64,000 nucleotides of DNA from Marispirochaeta aestuarii (GTDB lineage: Bacteria > Spirochaetota > Spirochaetia > JC444 > Marispirochaetaceae): positions 1 to 64,000 of the forward strand of contig NZ_MWQY01000018.1 in assembly GCF_002087085.1 (NCBI RefSeq). The letters run 5' to 3'. A program made the position numbers and the translations under genes. The notes beneath the pieces were generated by a model. It was not told the origin of the DNA and ran no database searches. It saw only the letters and a program-made list of their open reading frames with translations. This document shows positions 142-31,073 of the stretch, in pieces (within the stretch, counting starts at the first letter, position 1; the number at the start of each line of letters is the position of its first letter).

Positions 142-630
142 CTAATACTTGTACCCAAATTTTCGTAACAACTCGCGGCGCTCCCGCTTTTCCTTCTCCC
201 CTTCGACGCCTTTGGGAGAAAATCCGTCCACTACACCGATAATTCCCCGGCCCTGACCGGTCTCGGCAGTCAGGATCTGCAGGGGGTTGGCTGTGGCCGC
301 GTAAATCCGGGCGACTTCGGGGCACTGCTTTATCTGATTCAGGACGTTGATTGGAAACGCGTTCTTAATTATCAGATAAAAACTGTGCCCCGCCGCAGTG
401 ATTCTGGCGCATTCCACAGCTTGTGCAATTAGGTCGGCATTGTTGCCTTCGCTGCGGATAAGACATGGGCCGGAAGCCTCACAGAAAGCCAGGCCGAACT
501 CGATTCCCGGTACGGACCCTGCCATGATCTCACCGAGGTCCTCCACAGTTTTAATAAAATGAGACTGGCCAACTATGATGTTGCAGCCCTCTTCCCACTC
601 AAGCTGGTGAACTTCGATCCTTGCATTCAT
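142..630 (-). CDS. Adenosine-specific kinase (PF04008 family)
   Basis: A 162-residue protein matching the small adenosine-specific kinase family found in archaea and some bacteria. Family features visible are the [19 protein letters not shown] stretch near residues 45-65, the [20 protein letters not shown] segment in the middle and the [22 protein letters not shown] segment near residues 112-135. It would phosphorylate adenosine to AMP in the cytoplasm, though the physiological role of the family is poorly defined. It lies 22 bases downstream of the Na/Pi symporter gene on the same strand, so the two are probably cotranscribed; a phosphate importer next to a nucleoside kinase is a plausible pairing. 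Family membership is confident, substrate is by family. Confidence 0.85.
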
Positions 631-7573: not shown

Positions 7574-8911
7574 ATGGCGAACAAAAAGAATACGTATTGC
7601 CTGGTCCTCGGCGGAGGCGGCGGCCGGGGTGCCTATGAAATCGGGGTCTGGCGGGCCCTGCGGGAACTGGGCATTGGTTTTCACGCTGTAGCGGGGACCT
7701 CTGTCGGGGCCCTGAATGCCGCCTTCGTTGCCCAGAACGATTACGAAGGAGCCATGGAGCTTTTCTCCTTTGCCACCATCAGGGACATTGCGGACGTTCC
7801 GGAGAAATTTCTCAAGGACGGCAGGATCAATCGTGATCTGAACAATCTTCGTCGTCTCAGCAGTTATGTTCTGTCCCGACGGGGACTTGATACATCCCCC
7901 ATGAAAAAGCTCATTAATCACTATCTCCGGGAAGAGACGATCAGAAAGTCCGGGATCGATTTTGGCCTTGTTACCTTCGATCTGTCACAATTCAGACCCC
8001 GGCATCTCTTTCTCGAAGACATACCGGACGGTCAGCTGGCTGACTATCTCCTTGCCAGCGCTTCCTACCCCCTGTTCCGCAGTCCCGTTATTGACCAGTC
8101 AAAACTGACCGACGGTGGCGTAGCCGACAATATGCCCTACAACATGATGAAGGAACGGGGTTACCGGCGCATCATTACTGTCAACCTGTCCGGAGTGGGA
8201 CGTACCAGGCGTCCCCAGACGGAAAACACCCAGACCGTATACCTGAAAAACTCCCAGCCCCTGGAGGGAGCCCTGGAAATCTGTCCGGAAAATTCCCGCA
8301 GGGCAATGGATCTTGGATACCTGGATACGCTGCAGAGCTTCGAGGAGATAGACGGCATACGCTACTTTATTCAGAACGACCTGCCTCTCTTCCGCTCCCT
8401 GGAGGAGCATTTCTTTAACGAGAGGAACCTCCCCTTGATGCGATCCGCTGCCAAAGGGCTGATAAAAACGGAAAAAGGCGCCCCGTCGAAACCTGAACAC
8501 CTGGTGCGGAAGCTCCTGCCCAGGGACCTGGCAAAATACCGCTTCCCGGTGATTCCTGCCATCGAATGTACCGCCATCTGTCTGGGAATTCCCCGGGAAC
8601 CCCTCTATTCCCTGCCTGAACTTATCCGGCTTATCAGGGAAGAGGAACAGAAGCTCGGTAGCATCGAACCCTTTACTGAACAGGAGAATTTTCCGGGACT
8701 TGTCCGGCGTCTGCGCGGTGAACTTGATTCCCTGAAAACCGCAGGGCTTCTGCAACTGCCCCCCGCACGTTACGTAACGGCTCTTCGAACAGTTACAGGC
8801 ATGAGCGACGGGAACTTCGCCGTGCGAATGCTGCACCCCCTGTTCCCGGAGCTTCCCGTCGCGAATCTGATGCTCCGTATTATCCAAAGCAGTACCGGTT
8901 TTTTCTATTGA
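7574..8911 (+). CDS. Patatin-like phospholipase (RssA/NTE type)
   Basis: A 445-residue protein with an N-terminal patatin domain. The oxyanion loop LGGGGGRGAYEIG is at residues 12-24, the nucleophile elbow GTSVG has Ser43, and the catalytic Asp is in DGG at residue 180; these make the Ser-Asp dyad of the family, which hydrolyses phospholipids or lysophospholipids. Residues about 290-445 form a further domain I do not recognise. No signal peptide is evident, so it is probably cytoplasmic or peripheral at the inner membrane. The ATG at 7574 is chosen because the domain begins right after it; the frame remains open upstream to 7475 but that part is low-complexity and unlike the family. Confidence 0.88.
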   Translation: MANKKNTYCLVLGGGGGRGAYEIGVWRALRELGIGFHAVAGTSVGALNAAFVAQNDYEGAMELFSFATIRDIADVPEKFLKDGRINRDLNNLRRLSSYVLSRRGLDTSPMKKLINHYLREETIRKSGIDFGLVTFDLSQFRPRHLFLEDIPDGQLADYLLASASYPLFRSPVIDQSKLTDGGVADNMPYNMMKERGYRRIITVNLSGVGRTRRPQTENTQTVYLKNSQPLEGALEICPENSRRAMDLGYLDTLQSFEEIDGIRYFIQNDLPLFRSLEEHFFNERNLPLMRSAAKGLIKTEKGAPSKPEHLVRKLLPRDLAKYRFPVIPAIECTAICLGIPREPLYSLPELIRLIREEEQKLGSIEPFTEQENFPGLVRRLRGELDSLKTAGLLQLPPARYVTALRTVTGMSDGNFAVRMLHPLFPELPVANLMLRIIQSSTGFFY

Positions 8912-8936
8912 CCTGAATGAAGGGTGACCATACAAT
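8908..8936 (+). promoter_or_regulatory. Sigma70-type promoter of the nucleoside transport operon
   Basis: TTGACC (8908-8913), exact 17-base spacer, TACAAT (8931-8936). The -35 overlaps the stop codon of the patatin gene. The start would be near 8943, about 32 bases before the BMP lipoprotein ATG, which has a good AAGGAG site. Confidence 0.75.
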
Positions 8937-8974
8937 CATACTACACGGAATCATAATCCTTAAGGAGAAAAGAT

Positions 8975-10060
8975 ATGAAAAAGATTTTAGTATCTGTCAT
9001 CGCCATCGCTCTTATTTTCACCCTTGTTACCTCGTGTTCCAAGAAGGAAGAAGGCGCCGCGGCAGTGGATCAGGCCATGAAAGTCGGAATGGTGACCGAC
9101 GCCGGAACAATCGACGACAAATCCTTCAATCAGGGTACCTGGGAAGGTATTCAGGCAGCCCAGGAGGACATGCCCATCGACATCAAGTACCTTAAACCCA
9201 CCGGTACTACCGAAGCGGATTATCTCAAGGAAATCGGGAACCTCTACGACGCGGGTTACAAGTTTGTTGTTACCCCGGGGTTCAAGTTTGAAACCGCCAT
9301 CTACCAGGCTCAGCAGAAATATACCGACGCGAAATTCGTCCTACTGGACGGCGTTCCCCACCCCGGCGATTACAACACGGAGGTCGGTCCCAACACGGTA
9401 TCCATCTTCTTTGCAGAGCACGAGTCAGGATTTCTCGCGGGAGTTGCCACAGCGCTGGAACTCAATGAAGGCGAGGTCGCCTTTATCGGCGGTATGGAGA
9501 TTCCCCCGGTCCAGAAATTCAACTGGGGATTCCAGCAGGGTGTTACCTACGCCAACGAAAACCTCGGAACATCCATCAGCATCAATCCGGACAATGTCGT
9601 CTACCAGGGCTCCTTCGACAATGTAGCCGCGGGACAGCAGCTGGCCGCCCAGATGTTTGAGAAAGGTGTTGACGCAATATTCTGCGCCGCCGGCGGCGTC
9701 GGCGTCGGAGCCATCAACGAAGCAAAGGCCAGGGCCAAGTCCGGTGAAAAGGTCTGGATTGTCGGCGTAGACGTAAATCAGTATACCGAAGGAATCTACG
9801 AGGGCGAGAAGTCGGTTATTCTGACCTCGGCCATGAAGCGGATTGACCAGGCGGCCTACGACATGATCAAGGCTGAAATAGACGGGAACTTCCCGGGTGG
9901 ACAGATCCTGACCCTCGACGCAACCAACAACGGAGTCGGAATCCCCGAGGAGAATCCCAACCTCTCCGCCGATACCCAGTCACAGATGGACGAAGTTTTC
10001 TCTGACCTGCAGGCTGGAAAAATAACCGTATCCGCAGAGCAGGGCTCTCTGATTAAATAA
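8975..10060 (+). CDS. BMP/PnrA-family nucleoside-binding lipoprotein
   Basis: A 361-residue substrate-binding lipoprotein of the basic membrane protein family (Treponema PnrA, Borrelia BmpA-D). The N-terminal signal MKKILVSVIAIALIFTLVTSC ends in a lipobox with Cys21. The mature part shows family motifs: VGMVTDAGTIDDKSFNQGTWEG, then GFKFETAIYQAQQKY and FIGGMEIPPVQKFNWGFQQG. It should bind purine or other nucleosides in the periplasm and deliver them to the permeases encoded next. A Shine-Dalgarno (AAGGAG) precedes the start. A terminator-like hairpin follows the gene, which would give more binding protein than membrane components. Confidence 0.93.
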   Translation: MKKILVSVIAIALIFTLVTSCSKKEEGAAAVDQAMKVGMVTDAGTIDDKSFNQGTWEGIQAAQEDMPIDIKYLKPTGTTEADYLKEIGNLYDAGYKFVVTPGFKFETAIYQAQQKYTDAKFVLLDGVPHPGDYNTEVGPNTVSIFFAEHESGFLAGVATALELNEGEVAFIGGMEIPPVQKFNWGFQQGVTYANENLGTSISINPDNVVYQGSFDNVAAGQQLAAQMFEKGVDAIFCAAGGVGVGAINEAKARAKSGEKVWIVGVDVNQYTEGIYEGEKSVILTSAMKRIDQAAYDMIKAEIDGNFPGGQILTLDATNNGVGIPEENPNLSADTQSQMDEVFSDLQAGKITVSAEQGSLIK

Positions 10061-10072
10061 ACCGAAACCTTA

Positions 10073-10110
10073 AACAGGCGTTTCCCCCGGGAGGCGCCTG
10101 TTTTTATTTT
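10073..10110 (+). terminator. Partial terminator after the BMP lipoprotein gene
   Basis: AACAGGCG (10073-10080) pairs with CGCCTGTT (10095-10102) and is followed by TTTTTATTTT. It lies between the binding-protein gene and the ATPase gene of the same operon, where a leaky terminator commonly sets the excess of binding protein over the membrane complex. Confidence 0.8.
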
Positions 10111-10128
10111 CCCGGTCCGGAGGCGCCG

Positions 10129-11652
10129 ATGGAACATGTTGTCGAAATGGTGAATATCCGCAAGGAGTTTCCCGGTATTGTTGCCAATGACCGAGTCTCG
10201 ATAGATCTCAGAAAAGGAGAAATTCTGGCCCTTCTGGGGGAAAACGGGGCCGGTAAATCGACCCTCATGAGTATTCTTTTCGGCCTCTACAGGCCGGATG
10301 AGGGGTTCATCAAGGTCCGGGGAAAGGAGGTACAGATTACCAACCCCACCCAGGCCAGTGCCCTGGGAATTGGTATGGTACACCAGCATTTCAAACTGGT
10401 TCACAACTTCACCATCACCGAAAATATCGTTCTCGGTATGGAACCCAGGAAAGGACTCAGCCTCGATCTGGCATCCGCGGCAAAGCGGATTCGCGAACTG
10501 TCCCGGCACTACGGACTCAACGTCGATCCCGATGCGATTATCGAGGATGTCTCCGTAGGAATGCAGCAGCGTGTTGAGATTCTGAAAATGCTCTACCGGG
10601 ACGCTGAGGTCCTGATCTTCGATGAACCCACCTCCGTCCTGACGCCCCAGGAAATTCAGGACCTGATGGAGATAATGCGGAACCTGATCAGGGAGGGTAA
10701 ATCGATTATCCTGATTACCCATAAACTGAAGGAGATCAAGGCAATAGCCGACCGTTGTACCGTAATCCGCCGGGGCAAGGTAATCGGTACCGTGGATGTC
10801 AAATCCACCAGCGAATCGGAAATGGCCCGCATGATGGTCGGCCGGGAGGTCTCCTTCACTGTGGATAAGGAAAAACGCGAGCCCGGCGAGCTGATTCTGG
10901 AGATAGAGGACCTTTCGGTCCGGAGCGGACGGAATATCCTTGGGGTCAAGAATTTTTCCCTGCAGGTCAGGGCCGGAGAGATCCTCGGACTGGCCGGGGT
11001 GGACGGCAACGGACAGACCGAACTTGTGGAGGCCCTGACCGGACTTCGGAGCATAGAGAGCGGACGGATCCTGCTGAAAGGAAAGGACATAAGTTCCGAC
11101 GGTATCCATCAGCGGATACGGGCGGGGATAGCCCATATCCCGGAGGACCGGCAGAAGCGCGGCCTGGTCCTGGATTACAGTGTCGAAGACAATCTTGTTT
11201 TGGAAACCCACAGCAATGAGCCCTTTGCAAAACACGGTTTTCTCCAGCGTGAACCGATCCGGAAACACGCCCGGAAGATCATGGAAGACTTCGACGTCCG
11301 GGCAGGAGAAGGTGCCGTCACCAGAGCCCGGGCACTTTCGGGAGGAAATCAGCAGAAGGCCATTGTCGGCCGGGAGATAGACCTGGATCCGGATCTGCTG
11401 ATTGCCGTACAGCCCACCAGGGGTCTGGATGTCGGATCCATCGAATACATTCACCGCCGGCTGGTCGAACAGCGGGACAGGGGCAAAGCAGTACTCCTCG
11501 TGTCCCTGGAACTGGATGAAATCCTGGACCTTTCGGACAGAATCGCCATTATCAGCCGGGGTGAACTGACAGGGATTGTCCGGGCCGACGAAACAGACGA
11601 AAACGAGGTGGGCCTCATGATGGCCGGAGTCAGGCAGGGAGAATCGGCATGA
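10129..11652 (+). CDS. Nucleoside ABC importer, duplicated ATPase subunit
   Basis: A 507-residue tandem ABC ATPase of the NupA/RbsA type. Domain 1 has Walker A GENGAGKST near residue 39, an unusual-but-typical signature (VSVGMQQ) and Walker B LIFDEPTSVL; domain 2 has a degenerate Walker A (GVDGNGQTEL) and the ALSGGNQQKA signature, as in other CUT2-like importers where the second site is inactive. It energises uptake by the two permeases downstream. GGAGG precedes the ATG; the stop overlaps the next start (ATGA), indicating translational coupling. Confidence 0.93.
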   Translation: MEHVVEMVNIRKEFPGIVANDRVSIDLRKGEILALLGENGAGKSTLMSILFGLYRPDEGFIKVRGKEVQITNPTQASALGIGMVHQHFKLVHNFTITENIVLGMEPRKGLSLDLASAAKRIRELSRHYGLNVDPDAIIEDVSVGMQQRVEILKMLYRDAEVLIFDEPTSVLTPQEIQDLMEIMRNLIREGKSIILITHKLKEIKAIADRCTVIRRGKVIGTVDVKSTSESEMARMMVGREVSFTVDKEKREPGELILEIEDLSVRSGRNILGVKNFSLQVRAGEILGLAGVDGNGQTELVEALTGLRSIESGRILLKGKDISSDGIHQRIRAGIAHIPEDRQKRGLVLDYSVEDNLVLETHSNEPFAKHGFLQREPIRKHARKIMEDFDVRAGEGAVTRARALSGGNQQKAIVGREIDLDPDLLIAVQPTRGLDVGSIEYIHRRLVEQRDRGKAVLLVSLELDEILDLSDRIAIISRGELTGIVRADETDENEVGLMMAGVRQGESA

Positions 11653-12722
11653 AGGTGAGAGTTTCACGGGAGATAATCGTCGCCCTGACCGCGGTAGTAC
11701 TCGGGCTTGCCGCCGGGGCTCTTTTCATGCTGATAACCGGCCATAATCCCTTTGAAGGTTATACCTACCTTTTTCGCGGCGGATTAATGAACGTTGAACG
11801 AATCGGGAACTCCCTGGCCACCGCCACTCCCCTGATCATGACCGGACTTTCGGTGGCCTTCGCCTTCCGTACCGGGCTGTTCAATATCGGCGCCTCGGGG
11901 CAGATGCTCATCGGCGGACTCTGTGCCACCGCCGTGGGCCTGACACTTGTTCTGCCCCAGCCGCTGCTCCTTGCACTTATGCTTCTGGCCGCTGTCTGCG
12001 GCGGAGCCCTCTGGGGACTGGTCCCCGGCTTCCTCAAGGCCAGGTTCAACGTCCACGAGGTAGTAGCCACCATCATGATGAACTGGATCGCCTACTGGAC
12101 GGTCTACTATACGGTCCCGGCCTATTTTAAAGGACCCTACCTTGAGACCGAATCCCGCAAGATTCCGGAGTTCGCCTCGTTGAAGGTTCCCTGGCTTACC
12201 AGGATATTTGAAGGTTCCTACGTCAACCTCGGCCTTTTTGTGGCCCTTGCGGCGATTGTTGTTATTGCAGTTATTCTGAACCGTACCGTACTGGGGTATC
12301 AGCTCAAGGCCGCCGGTTTCAACCGTTACGCCTCGGAATATGCGGGTATGAATGTTCAGCGCAACATCATCCTTTCCATGACAATTGCAGGCGCCCTGGC
12401 GGGAATCGGCGGAGCGACCCTCTACGTCGGGTATGCCTCAAACATGCAGATAGGAGTCCTGCCCAGCCACGGCTTTGACGGAATCGCCGTCGCTCTCCTT
12501 GGATCAAACACCCCCATCGGGGTTCTGGGCTCGGCACTCTTCTTCGGTATTCTCCACTCCGGGAAGGGCTTTATGAACGCCATGACAGAGATTCCGCCGG
12601 AGATAGGAGACACCATCATCGCGACAATCATCTATTTTGCCGCCACCAGCGTCCTTATCGAGAACGGGCTGAACGCTCTTCAGCGCCGCCTGGTCAGACG
12701 CAAGGGACAGGAGGAAAGCTGA
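11649..12722 (+). CDS. Nucleoside ABC importer permease 1
   Basis: A 357-residue integral membrane protein of the BPD_transp_2 family (NupB/YufP-like), with about eight to ten hydrophobic segments and the characteristic FRTGLFNIGASGQMLIGG stretch near residues 80-95. It overlaps the ATPase gene by four bases and ends one base before the second permease, so the two permeases form the heterodimeric channel of the importer fed by the BMP lipoprotein. Confidence 0.92.
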   Translation: MKVRVSREIIVALTAVVLGLAAGALFMLITGHNPFEGYTYLFRGGLMNVERIGNSLATATPLIMTGLSVAFAFRTGLFNIGASGQMLIGGLCATAVGLTLVLPQPLLLALMLLAAVCGGALWGLVPGFLKARFNVHEVVATIMMNWIAYWTVYYTVPAYFKGPYLETESRKIPEFASLKVPWLTRIFEGSYVNLGLFVALAAIVVIAVILNRTVLGYQLKAAGFNRYASEYAGMNVQRNIILSMTIAGALAGIGGATLYVGYASNMQIGVLPSHGFDGIAVALLGSNTPIGVLGSALFFGILHSGKGFMNAMTEIPPEIGDTIIATIIYFAATSVLIENGLNALQRRLVRRKGQEES

Positions 12723-12723
12723 T

Positions 12724-13671
12724 ATGTGGGCTATCATAACGCAGATATTCCCCTATGCCGTCGCCTTTACGATCCCTCTGCTGATTACCTCCCTGGGGGG
12801 CCTCTTCAGCGAACGCTCCGGCGTCGTCAATATCGGACTGGAAGGTCTCATGGTAGTGGGATCCTTTACCAGCGCTCTGACAATTTCCAGCCTTTATCCC
12901 GTCATGGGCAGCGCGGCGGTCTGGATGGGGCTTGGTGCGGCGGTTCTGGCGGGTGCCGCTTTTTCACTGCTCCATGCCTTTGCCAGCATCAACCTCAACG
13001 CAAACCAGGTAATCAGCGGGACGGCCATCAATATGATCGCCGGCGCTCTTACGGTTTTCTTTGCCCGCAATATCACCGGTTCGGGAAACATCCAGATCGT
13101 TTCAGGACTCTCCCGCCGCAGCATACCCCTTTTGAAAGACCTGCCGATTGTCGGCCCCCTCTTCTTTACCCAGACCTATACCACCACATGGCTGGTCCTG
13201 CTGATCCTCTTTGGTGCCTGGTATCTGATCTACAAGACCTCCTTCGGCCTCCGGCTCAGATCCTGCGGGGAACATCCCCAGGCCGCGGATGCCGCCGGGG
13301 TAAATGTCTACCTGATCCGCTATATCGGGGTACTCTTCTCGGGGGCCTTCGCGGGTCTTGGGGGAGCGATTATCCTGGTAACCTACTCTGGAGAGTTCAA
13401 CGGCTCTGTCGCGGGACTGGGATTTCTCGCCCTCGCTTCGCTGATCTTCGGTCAGTGGAAACCCCTGGGGATTCTCGCCGCAACCTTCTTCTTCGGCTTC
13501 GCCTCGACCATCGCCAATGTCTCCCAGGTAATCCCGGCCCTGGCCCTGATTCCTGGACTTGTTCTGAAAGCTTTTCCCTATGTGGTTACCCTGATTGCTC
13601 TGGTTATCTTCTCCAAATCCTCCCAGGCTCCCCGGGCGGCGGGAGAACCCTTTGATCACGGGAAGCGCTAG
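12724..13671 (+). CDS. Nucleoside ABC importer permease 2
   Basis: A 315-residue membrane protein, paralogous partner of permease 1 (NupC/YufQ-like). It carries the ERSGVVNIGLEGLMVVGS motif near residues 30-47 and the FGLRLRSCGEHPQAADAAGVNVYLIRY loop near residues 175-200 that contacts the ATPase. Cytidine deaminase follows after five bases, which supports nucleosides as the substrate. Confidence 0.92.
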   Translation: MWAIITQIFPYAVAFTIPLLITSLGGLFSERSGVVNIGLEGLMVVGSFTSALTISSLYPVMGSAAVWMGLGAAVLAGAAFSLLHAFASINLNANQVISGTAINMIAGALTVFFARNITGSGNIQIVSGLSRRSIPLLKDLPIVGPLFFTQTYTTTWLVLLILFGAWYLIYKTSFGLRLRSCGEHPQAADAAGVNVYLIRYIGVLFSGAFAGLGGAIILVTYSGEFNGSVAGLGFLALASLIFGQWKPLGILAATFFFGFASTIANVSQVIPALALIPGLVLKAFPYVVTLIALVIFSKSSQAPRAAGEPFDHGKR

Positions 13672-21493: not shown

Positions 21494-21978
21494 ACCACGA
21501 ATTATCCCTCAGGGTAATCGAGTATTTTGGAACCGACTCCAGAAGAATTCACCACGCCATGCAGGTCTACGGTTTTGCCGAGACAATTCTTCTTGCAGAA
21601 GGGATTGTCGGCAAGGAAAGGCAGGTCATTGAAACAGCAGCCCTTATCCATGACATCGGGATTCCTGAGGCGGAACGAAAACACGGCTCTTCCGCCGGCA
21701 ATTACCAGGAGCTCGAAGGACCTCCCCTGGCCCGGACAATCCTTGAAGGACTCTCATACCCGGAGGAGGTAATCAATCGCGTCTGCTTCATAATAGCCAA
21801 CCACCACAGCTACACTAAAATTGACGGCATCGACTTCCGCATACTCGTGGAAGCCGATCTTATCGTCAATATCTACGGCAACACCATGTCCCGGCAAGCC
21901 GCAGACACCCTGATCAGCAAACACTTTGTCACTGCCGCCGGGAGGCGAATCGCCGAAGGGATGTATCAGGGGTATTGA
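21490..21978 (+). CDS. HD-domain phosphohydrolase
   Basis: A 162-residue protein with a single HD domain: first His in RRIHHAMQVYGFAE, the HD doublet in AALIHDIGIPEAER near residue 55, later His residues in IIANHHSYTKIDGIDF and a distal Asp in LVEADLIVNIYGN. This pattern fits a metal-dependent phosphohydrolase acting on nucleotides, substrate unknown. It starts inside the end of pth and its own end overlaps the SMP-30 gene (opposite strand) by 13 bases, which marks the left boundary of the AT-richer sugar cassette. Confidence 0.85.
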   Translation: MNHELSLRVIEYFGTDSRRIHHAMQVYGFAETILLAEGIVGKERQVIETAALIHDIGIPEAERKHGSSAGNYQELEGPPLARTILEGLSYPEEVINRVCFIIANHHSYTKIDGIDFRILVEADLIVNIYGNTMSRQAADTLISKHFVTAAGRRIAEGMYQGY

Positions 21979-22883
21979 GCTCCCGCGACACCAACATATA
22001 CCGAGTACACAGCATGGGTTCCCATGATGAACAGCTGATTTCGTTTCTTTCCGCCAAAGGTGAGGTTGGCAACGACATCAGGGACCAGGATCTTACCGAG
22101 AAGCTCTCCCCCGGGAGAATAACAGTGAACACCGTCAGCTGCACTGCTCCAGACATTTCCGTCGATATCAACCCTGAATCCGTCGGAAATCCCCGGATTC
22201 ACTTCGACAAAGACCGTGTTCCCGCTTAACTCATTTCCATCTTTCACTTGGAAACGACGAATATGGTGGGCTCCATTCTTGTCGTGGGTAGCTCCCGTAT
22301 CCGAAATATAGAGGTATTTTTCATCGGGAGAAAAGGCCAGACCGTTGGGCATCTGGAAATCATCGGCCACGACCGTCAGCTTCTCTTCCTTCGGGTCATA
22401 CCGAAATACATAGTTCTTTCCTGTTTCGCTGGGGCTGCGCTTTCCCTCGTAATCAGACATGATGCCGTAGGGAGGATCGGTGAACCAGATTGTACCATCC
22501 GATTTAACAACGACATCATTCGGAGAATTAAGACGTTTCCCTTCATAATTATCAACCAGCACGGTTATCGATCCGTCTATTTCCGTGCGGGTAACCCTCC
22601 GGGAAAGATGCTCGCAGCTTATAAGGCGTCCCTGTCTGTCCCGGGTATTGCCATTGGAATTATTCGATGGCGACCTGAATACGCTCACCCCCAGACCATC
22701 AACCCAGCGCATCATGCGGTTATTGGGAATATCACTCCAGACAAAATAGTCCCCATCGGAAAAATAGACCGGACCTTCGCACCACTTCATTCCGTCATGA
22801 ACCAGTTCCAGGTCACAGTTTCCCAGCAGATAATACCGGAACCGTTCATCAAAAATTTCATAATCCCGAATACGTTCTCCCAT
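21966..22883 (-). CDS. SMP-30/gluconolactonase-like sugar lactonase
   Basis: A 305-residue six-bladed beta-propeller of the SMP-30/Gnl/LRE-like family. The metal-ligand positions are present: Glu in WCEGPVYF near residue 35, Asn in RLNSPNDVVV near residue 119 and Asp in ISDGFRVDIDGNVW. Such enzymes open aldonolactones to sugar acids. It is the last gene of the unit starting with the sugar-binding protein, 16 bases after the permease, so the imported compound is probably a sugar oxidised to a lactone, or a lactone itself. No signal peptide; cytoplasmic. Confidence 0.88.
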   Translation of the reverse strand: MGERIRDYEIFDERFRYYLLGNCDLELVHDGMKWCEGPVYFSDGDYFVWSDIPNNRMMRWVDGLGVSVFRSPSNNSNGNTRDRQGRLISCEHLSRRVTRTEIDGSITVLVDNYEGKRLNSPNDVVVKSDGTIWFTDPPYGIMSDYEGKRSPSETGKNYVFRYDPKEEKLTVVADDFQMPNGLAFSPDEKYLYISDTGATHDKNGAHHIRRFQVKDGNELSGNTVFVEVNPGISDGFRVDIDGNVWSSAADGVHCYSPGGELLGKILVPDVVANLTFGGKKRNQLFIMGTHAVYSVYVGVAGAQYP

Positions 22884-22899: not shown

Positions 22900-23898
22900 T
22901 TACGTACTCTTCAGCTGCCGAATAATACTGTCCAGCAATACAGAAAAGATGATGACCACACCGACGGCGGCTCCCTGCCAGAAGGGTGATACCCCGAGAA
23001 GATTTAATCCATTGTTAAGAACCGTAATAATGGCTATACCTATAAGCGTTCCCAGGAGCCCCCCCTTGCCGCCGGCAAGACTTGTTCCTCCGATGACGAC
23101 TGCAGCAATGGCATTCAATTCAATATTTATGCCCGTATCAGGATCGACTGCTCCCAGGCGGGATGTAAGAATCAATCCGGAAACAGCGCAAAGAAAACCG
23201 GTAATTGCATAGGTCAGCGCCGTATAAAAACGGACGCGTACGCCCGAAAGATGAGCGGCCTCTTCGTTGCTTCCGATGGCATAAATATATAAACCGACCT
23301 TCGTCTGTTTCAGCATGAAATAGGCCATTCCAAACAACACAATGAACACAATAAGGTACAAGGGAACGCTTCCGATCTCTGCATTTCCGAAAAAGCGATA
23401 CGCCTCAGGAAGTCCCACCAGCGAACGGCCATCCGTCAGCAGATATGTGGCCGATCGCCCTATGGATAAAAAGCCCAGGGTGACTATAAACGCCGCCAAC
23501 CGCGCATATGCCACAAGAAAACCCTTAATGACACCGACAAGGGTTCCCAAAAGCAGCATGGCAACAACGCCCGGAATTACACCGAACTGCTGCATTACGA
23601 TTCCACCGAACATTGCTGCCACCGCGGCGTTACTGCCTACGGACAGATCTATACCCCCCGTCAGGATTACAAGGGTTTGACCTATGGCAATAATCCCCAG
23701 AAATGTTGCCTGCCAGAACAGGTTTCGAAAGTTGCGAATGGTAAGGAACCTCGGGGTCAGTATCGTCAGTACCAGACAGAGAAGGATGAATGCAATTGTC
23801 ATGACAATCTCAACCTGGGATGTGTAGGACAGCAGCTTATTCCCTTTCTCTTTCCATTTCTGAATTAAATTTGGCGACCCGTACATAGTCTCTTTCAT
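22900..23898 (-). CDS. Ribose-type ABC sugar importer permease
   Basis: A 332-residue membrane protein of the CUT2 (RbsC) family with about eight to ten hydrophobic segments. Family stretches include GGIDLSVGSNAAVAAMFGG near residue 80, AIGSNEEAAHLSGVRVRFYTALTYAITG near residue 210, and NIELNAIAAVVIGGTSLAGGKGGLLGTLIG near residue 255. It forms the homodimeric channel with the ATPase encoded immediately upstream, whose end it overlaps by four bases. The real substrate is unknown; ribose itself is only one option. Confidence 0.93.
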   Translation of the reverse strand: MKETMYGSPNLIQKWKEKGNKLLSYTSQVEIVMTIAFILLCLVLTILTPRFLTIRNFRNLFWQATFLGIIAIGQTLVILTGGIDLSVGSNAAVAAMFGGIVMQQFGVIPGVVAMLLLGTLVGVIKGFLVAYARLAAFIVTLGFLSIGRSATYLLTDGRSLVGLPEAYRFFGNAEIGSVPLYLIVFIVLFGMAYFMLKQTKVGLYIYAIGSNEEAAHLSGVRVRFYTALTYAITGFLCAVSGLILTSRLGAVDPDTGINIELNAIAAVVIGGTSLAGGKGGLLGTLIGIAIITVLNNGLNLLGVSPFWQGAAVGVVIIFSVLLDSIIRQLKST

Positions 23899-25415
23899 GA
23901 ATTTTCTACCTCGTTTGTTGATGCACTGGACGCATAGCGTATTATTTTCTCCTCATCTGCCTCTGACCAGTCCAGTTCTTTTACAATTGTGCCGGAATTC
24001 ATAACCAGTATTCGATCGCTTAAGGCCAGGATTTCCGGTAATTCCGAGGATATCAGAATGATTCCCTTGCCTTCCTGCACAAGCTGATCGATCAATGTAT
24101 AGATTTCGTATTTCGCACCAATATCTATTCCCCTGGTCGGTTCATCGAGGATAAGGATATCAGGATCCAGGGTCAGCCATTTTGCGAAGACGACCTTCTG
24201 CTGATTCCCCCCGGAAAGAGAATCCACGGGGTCCGAGACTTCACCAATACGAATTCGCAGATCATCCACCCGTTTTCTGACAATCCGATCCCCCTCCCGT
24301 TTAGCAAGAATCATCCCTGAACCAAGGGCATAATGGGCAAGCAGCAGGTTATCCTGGATGCTCATGTTGACAATCAAACCGTGACTCTTTCTGTTTTCCG
24401 GAAGCATGCCGATACCCTGCTGAATCGCTTTTCTCGGGGATCGGAAGATCTGGGACCGACTGCCTGTTGATACAGCACCTTCCTTCAGTTTATCTGCACC
24501 AAAAATCGCCCGGGCAAATTCGGTTCGGCCGGCGCCGACCAATCCTGAAAGTCCGACAATCTCGCCCCGACGCACGGTAATGTCACAGCCGCGGCAACGG
24601 GGTCCATTGTTTACATTCTGCGCCTGCAACAGGATTTCTCCAGGTTCACGTCTTTTCCGAATGGAAAAAAGGTCCCCGATCTCCCTTCCAACCATCGAGG
24701 CAATCAGTTCATCAGGAGTTGTTTCTGCTGTTACAAAATCGTTAGTTTTTTCTCCGTCCCGTAAAACGACGATACGATTGGAAAGTTCAAATATCTCTTC
24801 TATTTTATGGGTAACAAAAACAACCGTTGTACCATGATTTTTTTGCAGGCGTCGAACTAATTGAAACAGCTTATCTACTTCCCTGGGACTCAGGGCGGCG
24901 GTAGGCTCATCCAGAATCAAAAGCCGGGCTTCGTATGCGATACCTTTCAGAATTTCCAGAATCTGCTGTTCCGCGACAGACAGATTGGAAACGAGAATAT
25001 CGGGATCGACCGGAAGATCCCAGCCAATCTGACTGTAGAGCTCAAGGGCTCTTTTACGCATATCCTTTCGGTTCAAGAGGGTTTTTGTCGTCCCCCTGGC
25101 GCAGTCGGAAAGATACAGGTTTTCCGCAATTGAAAGGTCCGGCACAAGGTTGAATTCCTGAAGAACAATCCCTATACCTGAATCAATTGCCTCGTTTGTA
25201 TCCCGAAACGATACACGCCTGCCTTCAAGCAGAAGCTCTCCACTGTCATACCCCTGAACCCCGGCGATTATTTTTGCCAGTGTTGATTTTCCAGCACCAT
25301 TTTCACCTACAAGTGCCAGGGTATCACCTTTTTCGATGGTCATGCTGACATTATTCAGGGCCTGGATTCCACCAAAGCGTTTGCTTATCTCTTTTACTTC
25401 AATTAACGGATACAC
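23895..25415 (-). CDS. Ribose-type ABC sugar importer, duplicated ATPase
   Basis: A tandem ABC ATPase of the RbsA type, 506 residues from the GTG at 25415, which follows AGGGGATGAT; an alternative GTG at 25451 would add 12 residues. Domain 1 has Walker A GENGAGKST, signature LSVAEQQ and Walker B LLILDEPTAAL. Domain 2 has a degenerate Walker A (GLVGAGRTEF), signature LSGGNQQKV and Walker B DILILDEPTRGID. It drives import through the permease encoded next. Its first domain is the closest relative in this window of the ABC domain fused to the histidine kinase across the divergent promoter region. Confidence 0.93.
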   Translation of the reverse strand: MYPLIEVKEISKRFGGIQALNNVSMTIEKGDTLALVGENGAGKSTLAKIIAGVQGYDSGELLLEGRRVSFRDTNEAIDSGIGIVLQEFNLVPDLSIAENLYLSDCARGTTKTLLNRKDMRKRALELYSQIGWDLPVDPDILVSNLSVAEQQILEILKGIAYEARLLILDEPTAALSPREVDKLFQLVRRLQKNHGTTVVFVTHKIEEIFELSNRIVVLRDGEKTNDFVTAETTPDELIASMVGREIGDLFSIRKRREPGEILLQAQNVNNGPRCRGCDITVRRGEIVGLSGLVGAGRTEFARAIFGADKLKEGAVSTGSRSQIFRSPRKAIQQGIGMLPENRKSHGLIVNMSIQDNLLLAHYALGSGMILAKREGDRIVRKRVDDLRIRIGEVSDPVDSLSGGNQQKVVFAKWLTLDPDILILDEPTRGIDIGAKYEIYTLIDQLVQEGKGIILISSELPEILALSDRILVMNSGTIVKELDWSEADEEKIIRYASSASTNEVENS

Positions 25416-25461
25416 ATCATCCCCTATGCTATGCAGAAGCACTGCGGACACAATAACTGAT

Positions 25462-25525: not shown

Positions 25526-26527
25526 TTATTTCTGAGCTTCCAATTCCGCAGGAAAGACATTATCTGCCAGCTGGTCTTCCACATCGAGCACGTTTTCGCG
25601 GGTGACCAGAATGGTCGGAACGAGAACTCTCTCCTCCGGAGTCTCACCATTCAGGTATTTCCACATTGCCTTGAAGGACTCCCGGCCCATAAGCACAGGC
25701 TGCTGCATGGAAGCCGCGGCAATCCTGTCACCTGATTTTATTGCTTCAACCGTTTCAGGGCTGCCGTCGAATCCGACGTGGGCTATGTTCTTGTAGTCTC
25801 CGGTATTTTCAAGAGCAGACAGGGCGCCAAGGTTTGCTTCATCGTGCTGGGTAAACAGGCCGTGAAGGTTCTCATGCGCAGCCATCAGATCCTGAGTAAA
25901 GTTGAATGATTCTCCCCGGGTATACTGATTGCACTGCAGCAGATTAACGACGTTGATTCCGGCTTCGGTCATGGCTTTTTCGAATCCTGCGGTGCGGTCA
26001 CGTCCATTCTGCCGGGCCTGGGAGATAGCAATCTGAGCGACGTCTCCGTTCTCCCATCCTTTTTTCTTCATGATCCGGGCCAGATACTCGCCTGCCTGAT
26101 AGGCACCTTCAAAGTTGTCGGAAATGATAAAGGATACGTATTCACCGGAGTCGGTTCCAATGTCACTGATAACTACGGGGATACCGTCGGCCTTTGCCAG
26201 TTCAAGAACCGGAGGACAGGAGGCACTGTCGGTGGGTGAAATGATAATTCCATCCACTCCTCGCTGAATCAGATCCTGCACGTTCTGCAGCTGAGTTGCA
26301 GCATTCAATTCGGAATCCGAATCAATTATGGTTACCTTCTGACCGAGCTTTTCCGCTTCCTGCTTTATTCCATCGGACACATTTTTCCAGAACGGAACAT
26401 GAAGCGCGGGGGTTACATAAGCAATGGTTATTCCTTCGGAATCACCAGTCGCCTCCTGTTCACCGGCAGAAAAGACAGCTCCCACCAGAAAACAGCTTAC
26501 AATAAGACACAACAATAGTTTCTTCAT
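25526..26527 (-). CDS. Periplasmic sugar-binding protein (RbsB family)
   Basis: A 333-residue type I periplasmic binding protein. The signal peptide is MKKLLLCLIVSCFLVGAVFSAG; the mature part begins ITIAYVTPALHVPFWKNVSDGIKQEAEKLG and includes GVDGIIISPTDSASCPPVLELAKADGIPVVISD, as in ribose/galactose/autoinducer-2 binding proteins. It is the first gene of the transporter-lactonase unit. The ATG at 26527 follows GAAAGGAG; a longer frame adds ten charged residues. The predicted transcript from the sigma54 promoter begins about at the first base of this Shine-Dalgarno, leaving a leader of only about 15 bases. Confidence 0.92.
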   Translation of the reverse strand: MKKLLLCLIVSCFLVGAVFSAGEQEATGDSEGITIAYVTPALHVPFWKNVSDGIKQEAEKLGQKVTIIDSDSELNAATQLQNVQDLIQRGVDGIIISPTDSASCPPVLELAKADGIPVVISDIGTDSGEYVSFIISDNFEGAYQAGEYLARIMKKKGWENGDVAQIAISQARQNGRDRTAGFEKAMTEAGINVVNLLQCNQYTRGESFNFTQDLMAAHENLHGLFTQHDEANLGALSALENTGDYKNIAHVGFDGSPETVEAIKSGDRIAAASMQQPVLMGRESFKAMWKYLNGETPEERVLVPTILVTRENVLDVEDQLADNVFPAELEAQK

Positions 26528-26551: not shown

Positions 26552-26568
26552 GAGCAATATTTATGCCA
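26552..26568 (-). promoter_or_regulatory. Sigma54 (-24/-12) promoter of the sugar transporter operon
   Basis: Minus-strand TGGCATAAATATTGCTC: GG at 26567-26566 and GC at 26555-26554, separated by exactly 10 bases, against the consensus TGGCAC-N5-TTGC. The predicted start is near 26542, 15 bases before the binding-protein ATG. A gene for a sigma54-dependent activator lies divergently 150 bases away. Confidence 0.8.
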
Positions 26569-26640: not shown

Positions 26641-26670
26641 TTGACAGAAATATTCCGGCCGCCGTATAGT
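26641..26670 (+). promoter_or_regulatory. Sigma70 promoter of the regulator-kinase operon
   Basis: TTGACA (26641-26646), 18-base spacer, TATAGT (26665-26670). The start would be near 26677. A perfect dyad ACACA-G-TGTGT (26702-26712) lies in the 5' leader just before the regulator start. Confidence 0.78.
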
Positions 26671-26718
26671 CAAAGGTGTGCATTTTGAAAACAATGAAAC
26701 TACACAGTGTGTGAAATT

Positions 26719-28071
26719 ATGATACAACAATTGGAAAAGAAATGCTCTGTCCTTGTTGTGGATGACAGGGAAAAGGTCTGCCAGACACTTGTCAAGAATT
26801 TTGTAAAACTGGGTTACGAGGCAGACTTCGTTACTTCCGGATCTGAAGTTCTTCGCACAATACGCAAAAACCGGCCGGATACCGTCCTTCTGGACATTAT
26901 GCTCGGAAGCGACGATGGTATCGAAATCCTGAAAATGGTAAAGCATGAAAACCCTGATCTTCCGGTCATAATGATAACCGGATACGCATCCATTGATTCT
27001 GCTGTACAGTCTCTCAGATGCGGCGCCTATGATTATGTTCAGAAACCCCTCGAATTTGAGGAACTGAGAGAGATTGTCGACCGTGCAGTCAGGGAAAATT
27101 CATCCGGGATGTCACAGCCCGGTCAGGAAACTTCATTTCCAAAGATTGTTACCCAGAGTAAAGAAATGCTCTCCATAATCAAGCAGATTGACAAGCTGGC
27201 ACCCAGCGATCTTCCCATCCTGATTCTCGGAGAAAACGGGACAGGGAAGGAACTGATTGCTGATCGAATTCATCGAAAGTCAAAGCGAAGCTGCCGGCAG
27301 ATGCTGAAAATAAACTGCGCGGCTCTGCCCGAATCGCTTCTTGATAACGAGCTTTTCGGACATGAGAAAGGGGCCTACACAGGAGCAGAGTCGACCTTTC
27401 AGGGTGTCTTTGAGAAGGCCGACGGAAGCAGCCTGATGCTGGATGAAATCGGAGACATGTCGCTGTCCATACAGGCCAAGATTCTCAGGACTCTGCAGCA
27501 TAACGAAATCAGGCGTATCGGAGGAACAGAAACCATATCCATAAATGTCCGATTCATTGCGGCTACCAACAAGGATATCGAAAGTCTCATAAAAAAAGGA
27601 GACTTCCGGGCGGACCTCTTCTATCGACTCAATACCGCTATTATTCGAGTCCCCCCCCTGAGAAACAGACGGGCCGATATCCTTCCCCTGGCACAAACGT
27701 TTCTGGAACAATACTCTCTGAAAAAGGGGATACCCGCAAAGTCACTGACGGACAAAGCTGCCGATATTCTGATGGAGTATCACTGGCCGGGCAATATACG
27801 GGAACTGAAGAATATTGTCGAGTACAGCGCAGCTATTACCGAGTTCTCCGACACCATCACCGACCGCGATCTTCCTCCGCAAATTATGGGAAAAGAAGAT
27901 CTGTTCTCTTCAGATGACGATCCACTCAATATACGTGAAACCATGGAAAGAGAACTTATACAGAAAACCCTGCACAATACCCTGTTCAATAAAAGCGAAA
28001 CTGCACGAATCCTTAAAATGAGCCGTCGAACCTTATACAATAAAATCCAACGCTACAATATTGATATATAA
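26719..28071 (+). CDS. NtrC-family sigma54-dependent response regulator
   Basis: A 450-residue activator in three domains. Receiver: acidic pair Asp15-Asp16, phospho-acceptor Asp59 in TVLLDIML, Lys in YVQKPLEF. AAA+: residues about 145-370, with Walker A GENGTGKE, the sigma54-contact loop GAYTGAEST (Tyr in place of the usual Phe of GAFTGA) and Walker B LMLDEIGDM. C-terminal Fis-type helix-turn-helix KSETARILKMSRRTLYNKIQ. ATG at 26719 is chosen over a GTG four codons earlier. It is followed five bases later by the ABC-kinase gene and is expected to activate the -24/-12 promoter of the divergent sugar operon. Confidence 0.93.
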   Translation: MIQQLEKKCSVLVVDDREKVCQTLVKNFVKLGYEADFVTSGSEVLRTIRKNRPDTVLLDIMLGSDDGIEILKMVKHENPDLPVIMITGYASIDSAVQSLRCGAYDYVQKPLEFEELREIVDRAVRENSSGMSQPGQETSFPKIVTQSKEMLSIIKQIDKLAPSDLPILILGENGTGKELIADRIHRKSKRSCRQMLKINCAALPESLLDNELFGHEKGAYTGAESTFQGVFEKADGSSLMLDEIGDMSLSIQAKILRTLQHNEIRRIGGTETISINVRFIAATNKDIESLIKKGDFRADLFYRLNTAIIRVPPLRNRRADILPLAQTFLEQYSLKKGIPAKSLTDKAADILMEYHWPGNIRELKNIVEYSAAITEFSDTITDRDLPPQIMGKEDLFSSDDDPLNIRETMERELIQKTLHNTLFNKSETARILKMSRRTLYNKIQRYNIDI

Positions 28072-28076
28072 AGACC

Positions 28077-29918
28077 ATGCCGGAAGTACCATTAATTGAG
28101 CTTAAAAATATCAATCTTGACTACGGAGACATTCCCGCCCTCCGTGACATTAACCTGTCCCTGCTGCCCGGAGAAGTGCACGGAATCGTGGGAGAACACG
28201 GTGCAGGCAAATCATCCCTGGGAAAAGTAATCAGTGGAGTAATCCGCCCTCAATCCGGTACTCTCTTATATAAAGGAAAACACTACGGAAACACATCTTT
28301 AAAAGAGGTAATGAAGCTCGGCATTCAGATGGTGTATCAGCATACACCGCTCATAGAAGATTTTACGGTGATAAAAAACCTGTATTTTGCTCATCAGCCT
28401 TCCGCTTTTTTTCGACGCCGCCAGCTGAATACCATCGCCGAAGAAGTGGATACCATAAAGAAAAAATATGGAATATCGATCGATACCAGTGCCCGGGTCC
28501 AGGACTTGAACCTGTCGGATAAAGCCGTGGTTGATATCATCAAACACGTCATATCCAGGCCCAGCCTGCTGATCCTTGACGAAGCGCTGGAAAAAATCGA
28601 AACAAAAAACCTGGGGCCGGTTATTGAACTCCTTCATGCCTTGAAAGACAATGGAATGTCGATTTTATTTATTACCCATCGAATCGATGATCTTTTTGAG
28701 TTTGCCGACCGGGTCAGCATTATACGAAACGGAACCGTTCTTCTAAGTGAGTATGTATACAATATAGATAAAATAAACCTCATCCGTATGACATATACGC
28801 AGATCAATAAAAAGAAATACCCGGGGGTATACAGCCAGGAATTCTATCGTCTGTTAAAGTATAATGAAGCCATTTTACGCAAATTGCCCATTAACCTTAT
28901 AGTGATCGATACGAAGGAACATGTCCGCCTCGTAAACGAGTACTGTAAGGAGTATTTCGGCATTGACGACAATGCAAATATCGAATTGACCCTCGATCAG
29001 ATCATCGACCGGGGATCAGAATCTTTTCGCTCATCCATGCAAAGCGCACTCAAAAAGCGAAAAGAGGAAGTCTTCTATCATCTTCCTCTTAGAATAGGAA
29101 ATCGCGAAATCGTAACAAACCTGCGTGTTCTTCCCATCTTTGATAAAACCTCATTTATCGGTTCCATTATAATAATTGAAGATATAACTGAATACGATAA
29201 GCTGCAGAAGCAATATGTCTTATCGGAAAAACTGGCCTCCGTCGGACTGCTGTCTGCCGGAGTTGCTCACGAAATCAACAATCCCCTTGAAATAATGCTC
29301 AATCAACTCAACTATATCAAGCTTTCTTTCCAGAACCAGGAACTCATCAGTCTGATTGATGATGTTAAAGAGGAAGTTACATTCATCGCAAAGATCGTAC
29401 GAAATCTGCTCTCCTTTACTGATAACCGAAAAGTTGAGGAAGACAACATAGAAATAAATCATCTTATAAACGAGGTGATACGTTTTGTACGATTTTCCGC
29501 CAAAAAGCGCTCTGTTCAGATAAGTGTGCATAATGCCCGGGATCCTCTTTATATCAAAGCGAATGCTGATGAGATACGACAGGTCTTTCTCAACCTCCTG
29601 AAAAACAGCTTCGAGGCAATGCCCGGAGGCGGAAAAATCAATATCAAGATCCAGTTTACAGAAATTAACGATAAGCACTATATTGAGGTGCGCCATTGTG
29701 ATACCGGCCATGGGATTCAGACAGAAAACCCGGATGATATTTTTCTTCCCTTCTTTTCCACAAAAGAGAGTAATGGATTAAATAACGGCCTGGGGCTTTC
29801 CGTCAGCTATGGAATCGTAAGCAAATATAATGGAATAATACAGGCGGAAAATGATCCCAATGGAGGTTGCATCTTTGTCATAAGATTACCGCTCCAACAA
29901 CCCGATGCAAAGGAGTAA
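28077..29918 (+). CDS. ABC-ATPase / PAS / histidine kinase fusion
   Basis: A 613-residue soluble protein without membrane segments or signal peptide. Residues 5-240 are a complete sugar-importer type ABC ATPase domain: Walker A GEHGAGKSS (39-47, Lys45), Q-loop Gln88, a diverged signature LSDKA (146-150) in place of LSGGQ-like sequence, Walker B LLILDE (164-169) and switch His201. Residues about 255-375 are a PAS domain, then a HisKA dimerisation helix with His398 in GVAHEINNPLE, and a HATPase domain with N-box Asn510, DTGHGI and the NGLGLSVSYGIV lid. It is RbsA with its second ATPase replaced by an NtrB-like kinase. Gene order makes it the kinase of the adjacent NtrC-type regulator; sensing through the importer is inferred. 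Confidence 0.9.
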   Translation: MPEVPLIELKNINLDYGDIPALRDINLSLLPGEVHGIVGEHGAGKSSLGKVISGVIRPQSGTLLYKGKHYGNTSLKEVMKLGIQMVYQHTPLIEDFTVIKNLYFAHQPSAFFRRRQLNTIAEEVDTIKKKYGISIDTSARVQDLNLSDKAVVDIIKHVISRPSLLILDEALEKIETKNLGPVIELLHALKDNGMSILFITHRIDDLFEFADRVSIIRNGTVLLSEYVYNIDKINLIRMTYTQINKKKYPGVYSQEFYRLLKYNEAILRKLPINLIVIDTKEHVRLVNEYCKEYFGIDDNANIELTLDQIIDRGSESFRSSMQSALKKRKEEVFYHLPLRIGNREIVTNLRVLPIFDKTSFIGSIIIIEDITEYDKLQKQYVLSEKLASVGLLSAGVAHEINNPLEIMLNQLNYIKLSFQNQELISLIDDVKEEVTFIAKIVRNLLSFTDNRKVEEDNIEINHLINEVIRFVRFSAKKRSVQISVHNARDPLYIKANADEIRQVFLNLLKNSFEAMPGGGKINIKIQFTEINDKHYIEVRHCDTGHGIQTENPDDIFLPFFSTKESNGLNNGLGLSVSYGIVSKYNGIIQAENDPNGGCIFVIRLPLQQPDAKE

Positions 29919-29921
29919 AGG

Positions 29922-31073
29922 ATGCAGCACTCCGAACTCTCAGCCGAAACCCTCAGCTTCATGAAGAACCTCGGATTCCCCAGGCTCAAGGTACATCACT
30001 CCTATAACCACTTCGATTTTACCGAAGGGGCACGCAGGATTCTTGTAATCGGACCCATGGGTTCGGGAAAAACGGAATTCTCCGCCCGGGTATGGCGGGA
30101 CGCCCGTATAGCCAGGCAGAAATCCGGCGCCGTGGCGGAGCAGACAACCAGCGGAAGGGCGGACCGTCGTATCGTCTATTTTGTCCGTTCCGTAATGGAC
30201 AAACTGCGCTTCCCAGACTATCCCGCCGACGCCCTGGCCTATCGCGGCGGCTACGAACGCTGCGGCGAGAATATCTGCTATATATCCAACTCCTTCGAAC
30301 TGGAACAGGCCATTCACGACCACCCGGACGCGGGAACCTGGATTGTCGATGAAGCGAGTTTCTACGATGAGCGGACCGCCTACGTCGTCAAGGAGGCCTC
30401 GCTGCGGAACGATCTCGTCTTTATATTCCCCACCCTGGTGCTGAATTTCCGGCGGGACATATTCAACCGGACGACCCAGTTCCTGCTGGAAAACTGCACG
30501 GATATCTTTCCCCTGACAGCCTACTGTGAACACCCGGACTGTATCGAAGACTCCTTTTACACCTACCGCTATTACCGGATCGACGGAGAGGAGTGCCCCG
30601 CCCTCTACTTTGATCCCCTGATCGTCATCGGCGGGGATACAACGAAGGACGATCCCCGCCAGCCCAACTACTGCACCCGTTGCGACCGGCACCACTACCT
30701 GCCGGGGAAGGAGTACACCTATCTGGTGCTGAAACCCCTGGGAGAGAGTGCTTCCCGGGGTGATCTTGCACCCCTCCGCCGGGAACTTGAACTGATCAAA
30801 TCGGATATTACCCGATCCCGGCTGCACAGCCACCTGGAGAACCGTTTTCTTCAGGGAGAATCCCCGGAACCGGTTAATCTGAATGCCCTGAAGGTCCCCT
30901 GTATCGCCGAAAAGGCGCTGATCTTCCTCTTTGCCGAACAGAACCTGATCTCAGAAGACCAGATGCGCCTCCTGGTCGGGGAACTGGATCTCGACCGGGA
31001 ATACATGCAGCAGACCCTCCGGGACAACGGCCGTCCCCTGGACCTGGATCAGTTTACCCTCTCCTTCAAGTGA
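29922..31073 (+). CDS. Divergent thymidine kinase-like P-loop protein
   Basis: A 383-residue protein, about twice the length of usual type II thymidine kinase. The TK pattern is recognisable: P-loop GPMGSGKTEF (44-53), Walker B/catalytic WIVDEASFYD near residue 145, and a lasso region with zinc cysteines, TAYCEHPDC then LIVIGGDTT...NYCTRC, parallel to the CxxC and VIGG-C pattern of TK. Residues 260-383 are an extra helical tail. It likely binds a nucleoside and ATP; activity on thymidine is unproven. A strong AAAGGAG precedes the start, three bases after the kinase gene, but its GC-rich codon use matches the backbone, not the cassette before it. Confidence 0.7.
   Translation: MQHSELSAETLSFMKNLGFPRLKVHHSYNHFDFTEGARRILVIGPMGSGKTEFSARVWRDARIARQKSGAVAEQTTSGRADRRIVYFVRSVMDKLRFPDYPADALAYRGGYERCGENICYISNSFELEQAIHDHPDAGTWIVDEASFYDERTAYVVKEASLRNDLVFIFPTLVLNFRRDIFNRTTQFLLENCTDIFPLTAYCEHPDCIEDSFYTYRYYRIDGEECPALYFDPLIVIGGDTTKDDPRQPNYCTRCDRHHYLPGKEYTYLVLKPLGESASRGDLAPLRRELELIKSDITRSRLHSHLENRFLQGESPEPVNLNALKVPCIAEKALIFLFAEQNLISEDQMRLLVGELDLDREYMQQTLRDNGRPLDLDQFTLSFK

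Follow-up and report, generated by a model that had tools for sequence, protein, structure and literature searches.

What can a histidine kinase sense if it has no membrane segment of its own and carries, in the place where a sensor is expected, a domain of the type found in the ATPases of sugar importers? The question is raised by a gene of Marispirochaeta aestuarii lying in the stretch of 64,000 nucleotides analysed here (the window), whose product had been read from the sequence alone as one soluble protein in which an RbsA-type ABC domain is followed by PAS, HisKA and HATPase domains. The 613-residue ORF, its Pfam domains and a hydropathy analysis that gave no transmembrane segment bear out this architecture. 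The Pfam matches are ABC_tran at residues 22–171 (1.5e-20), PAS_4 at 268–372 (1.2e-6) and HATPase_c at 496–607 (6.1e-20), in addition to a HisKA match at 391–449 (1.3e-4) that is below the gathering score; the ABC_tran stretch is the sole one detected, the second ATPase half of RbsA being absent, as had been claimed. The motifs are located precisely where the sequence-only reading had placed them, namely Walker A GEHGAGKSS at 39–47, Gln88, Walker B at 164–169, the switch His201 and the candidate phospho-acceptor His398.

The protein most likely belongs to an importer-coupled two-component system having a new type of input domain. Whereas sequence comparison lends strong support to the regulatory circuit, our hypothesis for the sensing step, held with about as much confidence as doubt, is that the kinase provides the input to a two-component system for a CUT2 importer, which the ABC domain would meet, thereby setting the phosphorylation of His398.

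The kinase gene follows that of an NtrC-type response regulator and the pair diverges from the genes of a CUT2 importer (Table 1). The start of the regulator gene, listed as GTG 26707, is likely ATG 26719, as indicated by the alignment with the locus (L029) of another genome which encodes a full-length, 87%-identical orthologue of the kinase with the same neighbours. The true start of rbsB is probably ATG 26527, because the listed TTG start (26557) lies within the sigma-54 promoter. This promoter is the sole exact sigma-54 match in the 64-kb window (0.08 expected) and sigma-54 (RpoN) is encoded in the genome, so that the elements of an NtrC-type system, i.e., a regulator with REC, sigma-54 AAA+ and HTH domains, a sigma-54 promoter on the presumed target and RpoN, are all present. 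In the palindrome, 9/12 arm positions are complementary and conservation in L029 is partial. The SMP-30/gluconolactonase-like gene, being adjacent to the importer genes and on the same strand, is a probable member of their operon and hints at a sugar or sugar-lactone as the substrate.

Table 1. Features of the kinase locus (nucleotide positions in the window; parts of the kinase in residues)
Feature	Position	Strand	Evidence or remark
SMP-30/gluconolactonase-like protein	21966..22883	-	Pfam; kept in L029
RbsC-type permease	22900..23898	-	Pfam, NCBIfam
RbsA/AraG-type tandem importer ATPase, both NBDs present	23895..25451	-	Pfam, alignment, NCBIfam
CUT2 substrate-binding protein (RbsB-like)	25526..26527	-	Pfam, NCBIfam
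Sigma-54 (-24/-12) promoter TGGCATAAATATTGCT	26568..26553	minus	points into rbsB
Sigma-70 promoter-like TTGACA-18-TATAGT, regulator-kinase operon	26641..26670	+	conserved in L029
Palindrome (imperfect) TGTGCATTTTGAAAACAATGAAACTACACA; putative upstream site of the regulator	26677..26706	.	sequence
NtrC-type response regulator (REC, sigma-54 AAA+ with GAYTGA, Fis-type HTH)	26719..28071	+	Pfam, NCBIfam
ABC(NBD1-like)-PAS-HisKA-HATPase soluble histidine kinase, 613 aa	28077..29918	+	ORF, Pfam, homologue alignment, AlphaFold, hydropathy
Parts of the kinase: ABC 5-241; flexible linker 241-259; helix 253-269; PAS 268-372; DHp with His398; CA 490-607			

The ORF just after the kinase (29922–31073, + strand) has a partial match to the thymidine kinase family of Pfam (PF00265, residues 125–239 of 383) and a MarC gene comes next; in L029, too, the kinase is trailed by ORFs of equal length. 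A second ABC importer, encoded at 8975–13671 (+ strand) by genes for a Bmp/PnrA-like binding protein, a tandem RbsA-like ATPase and two permease-like ORFs, resembles nucleoside importers, judging from its sequence, and no kinase was seen beside it.

That the N-terminal part of the kinase has an ABC fold is confirmed by the AlphaFold model of the protein alone, in which residues 3–241 form such a block (pLDDT mostly 80–92), followed by a disordered linker, by the helix leading into the PAS domain and by a standard DHp/CA core. When residues 3–241 were compared with solved structures (VIA-align), the best match was CbiO (5x40; Z 29.0, rmsd 2.3, 231 residues), followed closely by LptB, MetN and further ABC ATPases. 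Searches of the solved structures with the importer components yielded no RbsC-like chain at E 0.01 and, among the best 60 matches listed for RbsA, no named CUT2 ATPase.

The assignment of this domain to the RbsA type also holds. In a tree comprising RbsA NBD1, RbsA NBD2 and other ABC ATPases, the ABC domains of the kinases come out as a single clade with support 1.0, and this clade joins NBD1 (0.855, and 0.949 with the Firmicutes set described below added), apart from NBD2 and the other ABC ATPases. Among the CUT2 models of NCBIfam only the first half of RbsA, YtfR, AlsA and similar proteins was matched, the best ABC matches spanning residues 6–240 of the kinase, and none of the models reported covers the whole fusion. 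The derivation of the domain, by a single origin, from NBD1 of an RbsA-type importer ATPase is thus well supported by phylogeny and family models.

A column-by-column comparison with RbsA NBD1 indicates what has been kept and what has changed. Walker A, Walker B and the Q-loop Gln are retained: Lys45, Gln88, Asp168 and His398 are invariant in 82/82 homologues, Glu169 is found in 77/82 and the switch His (His201) in 58/82. The strongest departures concern the D-loop (170–177; JSD 0.46, the highest among the regions compared), where RbsA has PTSA and the kinases a variable sequence, position 173 being Lys/Arg in 73/82, and the C-terminal tail of the domain, where MMVGR of RbsA has become xAYTQ (JSD 0.87–0.95 at positions 239–242). 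Thus, of the traits of a CUT2 importer ATPase (RbsA/MglA/XylG/AraG), the kinase possesses the NBD1 Walker A, Q-loop, Walker B Asp-Glu and switch His, but not the two tandem NBDs, of which the second has LSGGNQ, nor the D-loop PTSA and the tail MMVGR; its single NBD is fused to a kinase and a complete RbsA is encoded separately. As to the ABC signature, said to be altered to LSDKA, the alteration is real but the register is L144-N-L-S-D148 and the change is nothing special, since the NBD1 signature of RbsA itself reads LSVAEQQ in the window and departs from the canonical form in the majority of the 70 RbsA sequences aligned; judged from these alignments, it is inherited and not new, and a degenerate signature, common to RbsA NBD1, was discarded as the key novelty. 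In the kinase core, His398, Asn506, Asn510, Asp542, Gly544, Gly546, Gly571 and Gly573 are invariant (82/82), so that the H-box His, the N box and the G1 and G2 boxes of a HisKA-type kinase are all in place.

The survey from which these numbers derive, carried out in related genomes, then class-wide and then in one genome per species, yielded 82 distinct full-length homologues of 596–711 residues, mostly from Spirochaetota, in all of which the PAS region could be aligned. The related genomes contributed 26 full-length relatives, and in the class-wide search the family was present in about 50/297 genomes, counting strong full-span rows; one match (L150) was left out of the 82 as a member of the second family considered below. 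Outside Spirochaetota, homologues occur in single MAGs labelled Opitutae, Acidobacteria (1/247 genomes), Poribacteria and Gynuella, bearing in mind that MAG labels can be wrong, and the kinase is also found in bacterium UASB270 and in another genome of the same group. No fused homologue was found in the plasmid collection. Among the ABC-only matches in other phyla, those inspected as possible further fusions turned out to be tandem ATPases of the ordinary kind, truncated contigs, one short ORF with ABC alone and chance matches on the reverse strand. The bacterium UASB270 (G302) carries six ABC-kinase copies in one genome of 8.4 Mb, an expansion of the family.

Although the assembly of the window is a draft of 78 contigs, the possibility that the kinase results from a gene-fusion or assembly artefact can practically be dismissed: the L029 orthologue is full-length and has the same neighbours in another genome, and the 82 full-length homologues come from many genomes, including single-contig ones.

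What surrounds these homologues is nearly constant. In the 60 loci with at least 4.5 kb upstream, an NtrC-type regulator is present in 59 and a CUT2 RbsA plus RbsC in 58, the importer being usually divergent from the regulator–kinase pair; the tie between kinase and CUT2 importer, first perceived in the window, is borne out, and recurs in 7/7 loci of the second, separately built family. For comparison, the genome of M. aestuarii encodes about 14 RbsA-type ATPases in 4.2 Mb, so that a random gene can be estimated to have one within 8 kb some 5% of the time. A sigma-54 site directed into the importer was found in 39/44 divergent loci vs 2.4% of matched random regions. That nearly all the relatives lie beside both importer and regulator points to an undescribed coupling of sugar import to gene control, and the kinases with an importer-ATPase input domain appear as a genuine class of sensors that is conserved and, it seems, not described before.

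In the homologue L040 the regulator is present and no importer gene is found nearby despite a full flank, the neighbours being a glycyl-radical enzyme and two zinc alcohol dehydrogenases; in L126:10207-13451, from the MAG labelled Gynuella, the linked importer has a single-domain ATPase of 257 residues instead of a tandem RbsA.

Distance matrices indicate strong co-inheritance of kinase and regulator (r up to 0.82; 0.75–0.82 for the ABC and CA domains vs the regulator), and from this co-divergence and the gene order we infer phosphotransfer from the former to the latter. The correlation between kinase and importer is weak (0.07–0.35) and, once shared operon history is removed, that of the ABC domain with the permease (0.05) or with RbsA (about -0.04) is not significant, nor was residual co-divergence detected with either RbsA NBD1 or RbsA NBD2. 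Co-divergence with the permease or with either NBD was accordingly rejected as a proof of docking, there being no signal beyond shared operon history; the binding protein alone displays a small residual correlation with the ABC (0.13, p 0.02) and PAS (0.15, p 0.006) domains, these p values being uncorrected for several tests. The missing ABC–RbsC co-divergence neither shows nor excludes docking. To judge from these distances, kinase and regulator have evidently changed importers as a pair, so that docking, if any, must make use of features common to CUT2 importers.

A second family offers an independent view of the same association. In a Firmicutes MAG (L150), a separate fusion of the type ABC-GAF-HisKA_2-HATPase is followed by an ANTAR (RNA-binding) regulator and then by RbsB and RbsA; related proteins exist in 8/398 sampled Firmicutes genomes, and ANTAR regulator, RbsA and RbsB are present in all 7 loci with enough flank. 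A CUT2-type ABC input and an adjoining importer are common to the two families, whereas kinase type and output type differ. The Firmicutes ABC domains have an ABC fold, as judged by comparison with LptB (4p33; Z 25.9, rmsd 2.7, 232 residues), and constitute their own clade within the NBD1 group, in which branch support is weak; because this clade is not sister to that of the spirochaetes, the two recruitments were probably separate. The Walker A Lys is kept in 7/7 of these domains, the Walker B Asp and the Q-loop Gln in 4/7 each and the switch His in 1/7, and owing to these partial losses general ATP hydrolysis within this family seems unlikely. Leaders of roughly 290–810 nt precede the importer genes in L181 and L183–L188 and could be antitermination targets; a simple scan of the Firmicutes loci revealed no ANTAR RNA hairpins, and there was no Rfam match at gathering thresholds.

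How might such a kinase operate? According to our hypothesis, the ABC domain would be ATP-loaded but not equipped to run the cycle of a transport motor. At the membrane it would make contact with the importer, on RbsA itself or where the first half of RbsA sits on the permease, docking on the permease or on the importer ATPase being plausible. An occupied or transporting importer would displace the ABC domain, and the movement would be relayed by the 253–269 helix to the PAS domain and the DHp helices, thus affecting phosphorylation of His398, then that of the regulator and finally transcription of the importer genes, the regulator presumably activating the sigma-54 promoter located before rbsB-rbsA-rbsC-lactonase. 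Permease and binding protein would in this way provide the transmembrane receptor missing from the kinase. A more specific and tentative version, which we would not yet favor, is that the kinase acts as a substitute importer ATPase half, its dimer docking two NBD1-like domains on an RbsC-type permease to bring about receptor signalling via His398, and that this device has arisen on two or more occasions, the kinases and outputs being different, namely sigma-54 activation in Spirochaetota and, probably, ANTAR antitermination in Firmicutes.

Docking on the importer is not without difficulties. A kinase that docks at the membrane might be expected to co-diverge with the permease, yet the correlation with the importer is weak and no residual ABC–permease or ABC–RbsA signal is left; furthermore, L040 has no importer gene nearby and it may be the PAS domain that really senses the ligand. 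This outcome keeps two other explanations alive. The ABC domain could be a stand-alone ATP/ADP (energy) sensor, or an ATP-driven clamp, that makes no contact with the importer, the latter being merely the regulated target; such a role would agree with the invariance of Lys45, Gln88 and Asp168, with the lack of co-divergence with permease or importer ATPase and with a kinase dimer that would pair two ABC domains, but is unlikely in our opinion, for it leaves unexplained, twice over, the CUT2 NBD1 origin of the domain and its near-constant CUT2 neighbour, besides being at odds with the divergence of the D-loop, which a canonical ATP sandwich requires, and with the residues lost in Firmicutes. 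If, instead, a sugar or metabolite were bound by the PAS (or GAF) domain as the true sensor, the ABC domain would be only a dimerisation or localisation module. The presence of the PAS region in all the homologues and the small residual correlations of ABC and PAS distances with the binding protein speak for this possibility, which is nevertheless rather improbable given the strong sequence constraint on the ABC domain and the replacement of PAS by GAF in the Firmicutes family, where ABC domain and importer link stay.

The contact could also concern the ATPase of the importer instead of its permease. RbsA NBD1 relies on the LSGGNQ of NBD2 for its ATP site, as implied by the general pairing of ABC sites, and the kinase domain, NBD1-like and, as RbsA NBD1, devoid of a canonical signature, might pair with RbsA NBD2, so that the kinase would sense, or compete for, the importer ATPase. 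With the partner-facing D-loop and signature residues diverged and no co-divergence with RbsA NBD2, this arrangement appears quite improbable. Coupling through a meeting of ABC domain and importer thus stays our preferred explanation.

Comparison with known systems helps to define what is peculiar to this one. Two-component control of a sugar importer is a property shared with XylFII–LytS and CuaD-type systems; XylFII–LytS-type kinases are transmembrane and sense outside the membrane via a binding protein. A binding-protein-coupled transmembrane kinase sensing outside the membrane is likewise described for CuaD (PMC10384115). The ABC kinase has neither transmembrane nor extracytoplasmic region, in contrast to a second kinase of the same genome (L189, see below). 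The state of an importer feeds gene control in MalK–MalT, where, as in Pst–PhoU–PhoR, the transporter or its own ATPase signals, whereas here a dedicated paralogue domain lies inside the kinase. A review of transport-coupled sensing treats Pst–PhoU–PhoR, in which importer state feeds gene control, and BceAB–BceS as separate-protein systems (PMC6978683). The flux sensing of BceAB–BceS has in common with the present case a kinase tied to an ABC transporter under its control and the concept of sensing through the transporter (PMC6978683, PMC10314905). However, BceS is a membrane kinase without cytoplasmic sensor that works with a whole ABC exporter of the BceAB type, whereas the kinase described here has its own importer-type NBD, no transmembrane segment and a CUT2 importer as its neighbour. 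With AtoS/AtoC and NtrB/NtrC the resemblance extends to the kinase core (match to AtoS, 256–610), to the regulator (AtoC/NtrC) and to the sigma-54 promoter before the presumed target, but here the ABC domain replaces the transmembrane/periplasmic sensor.

In keeping with the earlier statement that no characterised system with this architecture was known, no description of it was found in the open-access literature searched on ABC-kinase fusions, CUT2-linked two-component systems, ANTAR-linked importers and spirochaetes, subscription papers being a place where it may have been mentioned earlier; ABC-kinase fusions are also absent from excerpts of the 2005 census of signalling proteins (PMC1183210).

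Two-component systems fed by ABC transporters are known, but usually transporter and signalling proteins are distinct and the contacts between them are difficult to pin down; in the present case a recognisable importer domain within the kinase itself may constitute the contact part, which makes a residue-level test possible, and the sigma-54 promoters located beside most copies provide a ready reporter. If docking were true, it would in principle be possible to regard every CUT2 importer as a receptor for a sugar.

The same genome also harbors a conventional counterpart. Next to another CUT2 importer (L189:2930-11781), a membrane-bound kinase with an extracytoplasmic region, as far as the membrane parts can be read from the sequence, is encoded at 8429–10522 upstream of an NtrC regulator, in a module that includes a perfect sigma-54 site (6925–6939) and an extra binding protein. 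This version suggests that in the ABC kinase the ABC domain occupies the place of the transmembrane sensor, and the two kinases offer a natural comparison within one genome.
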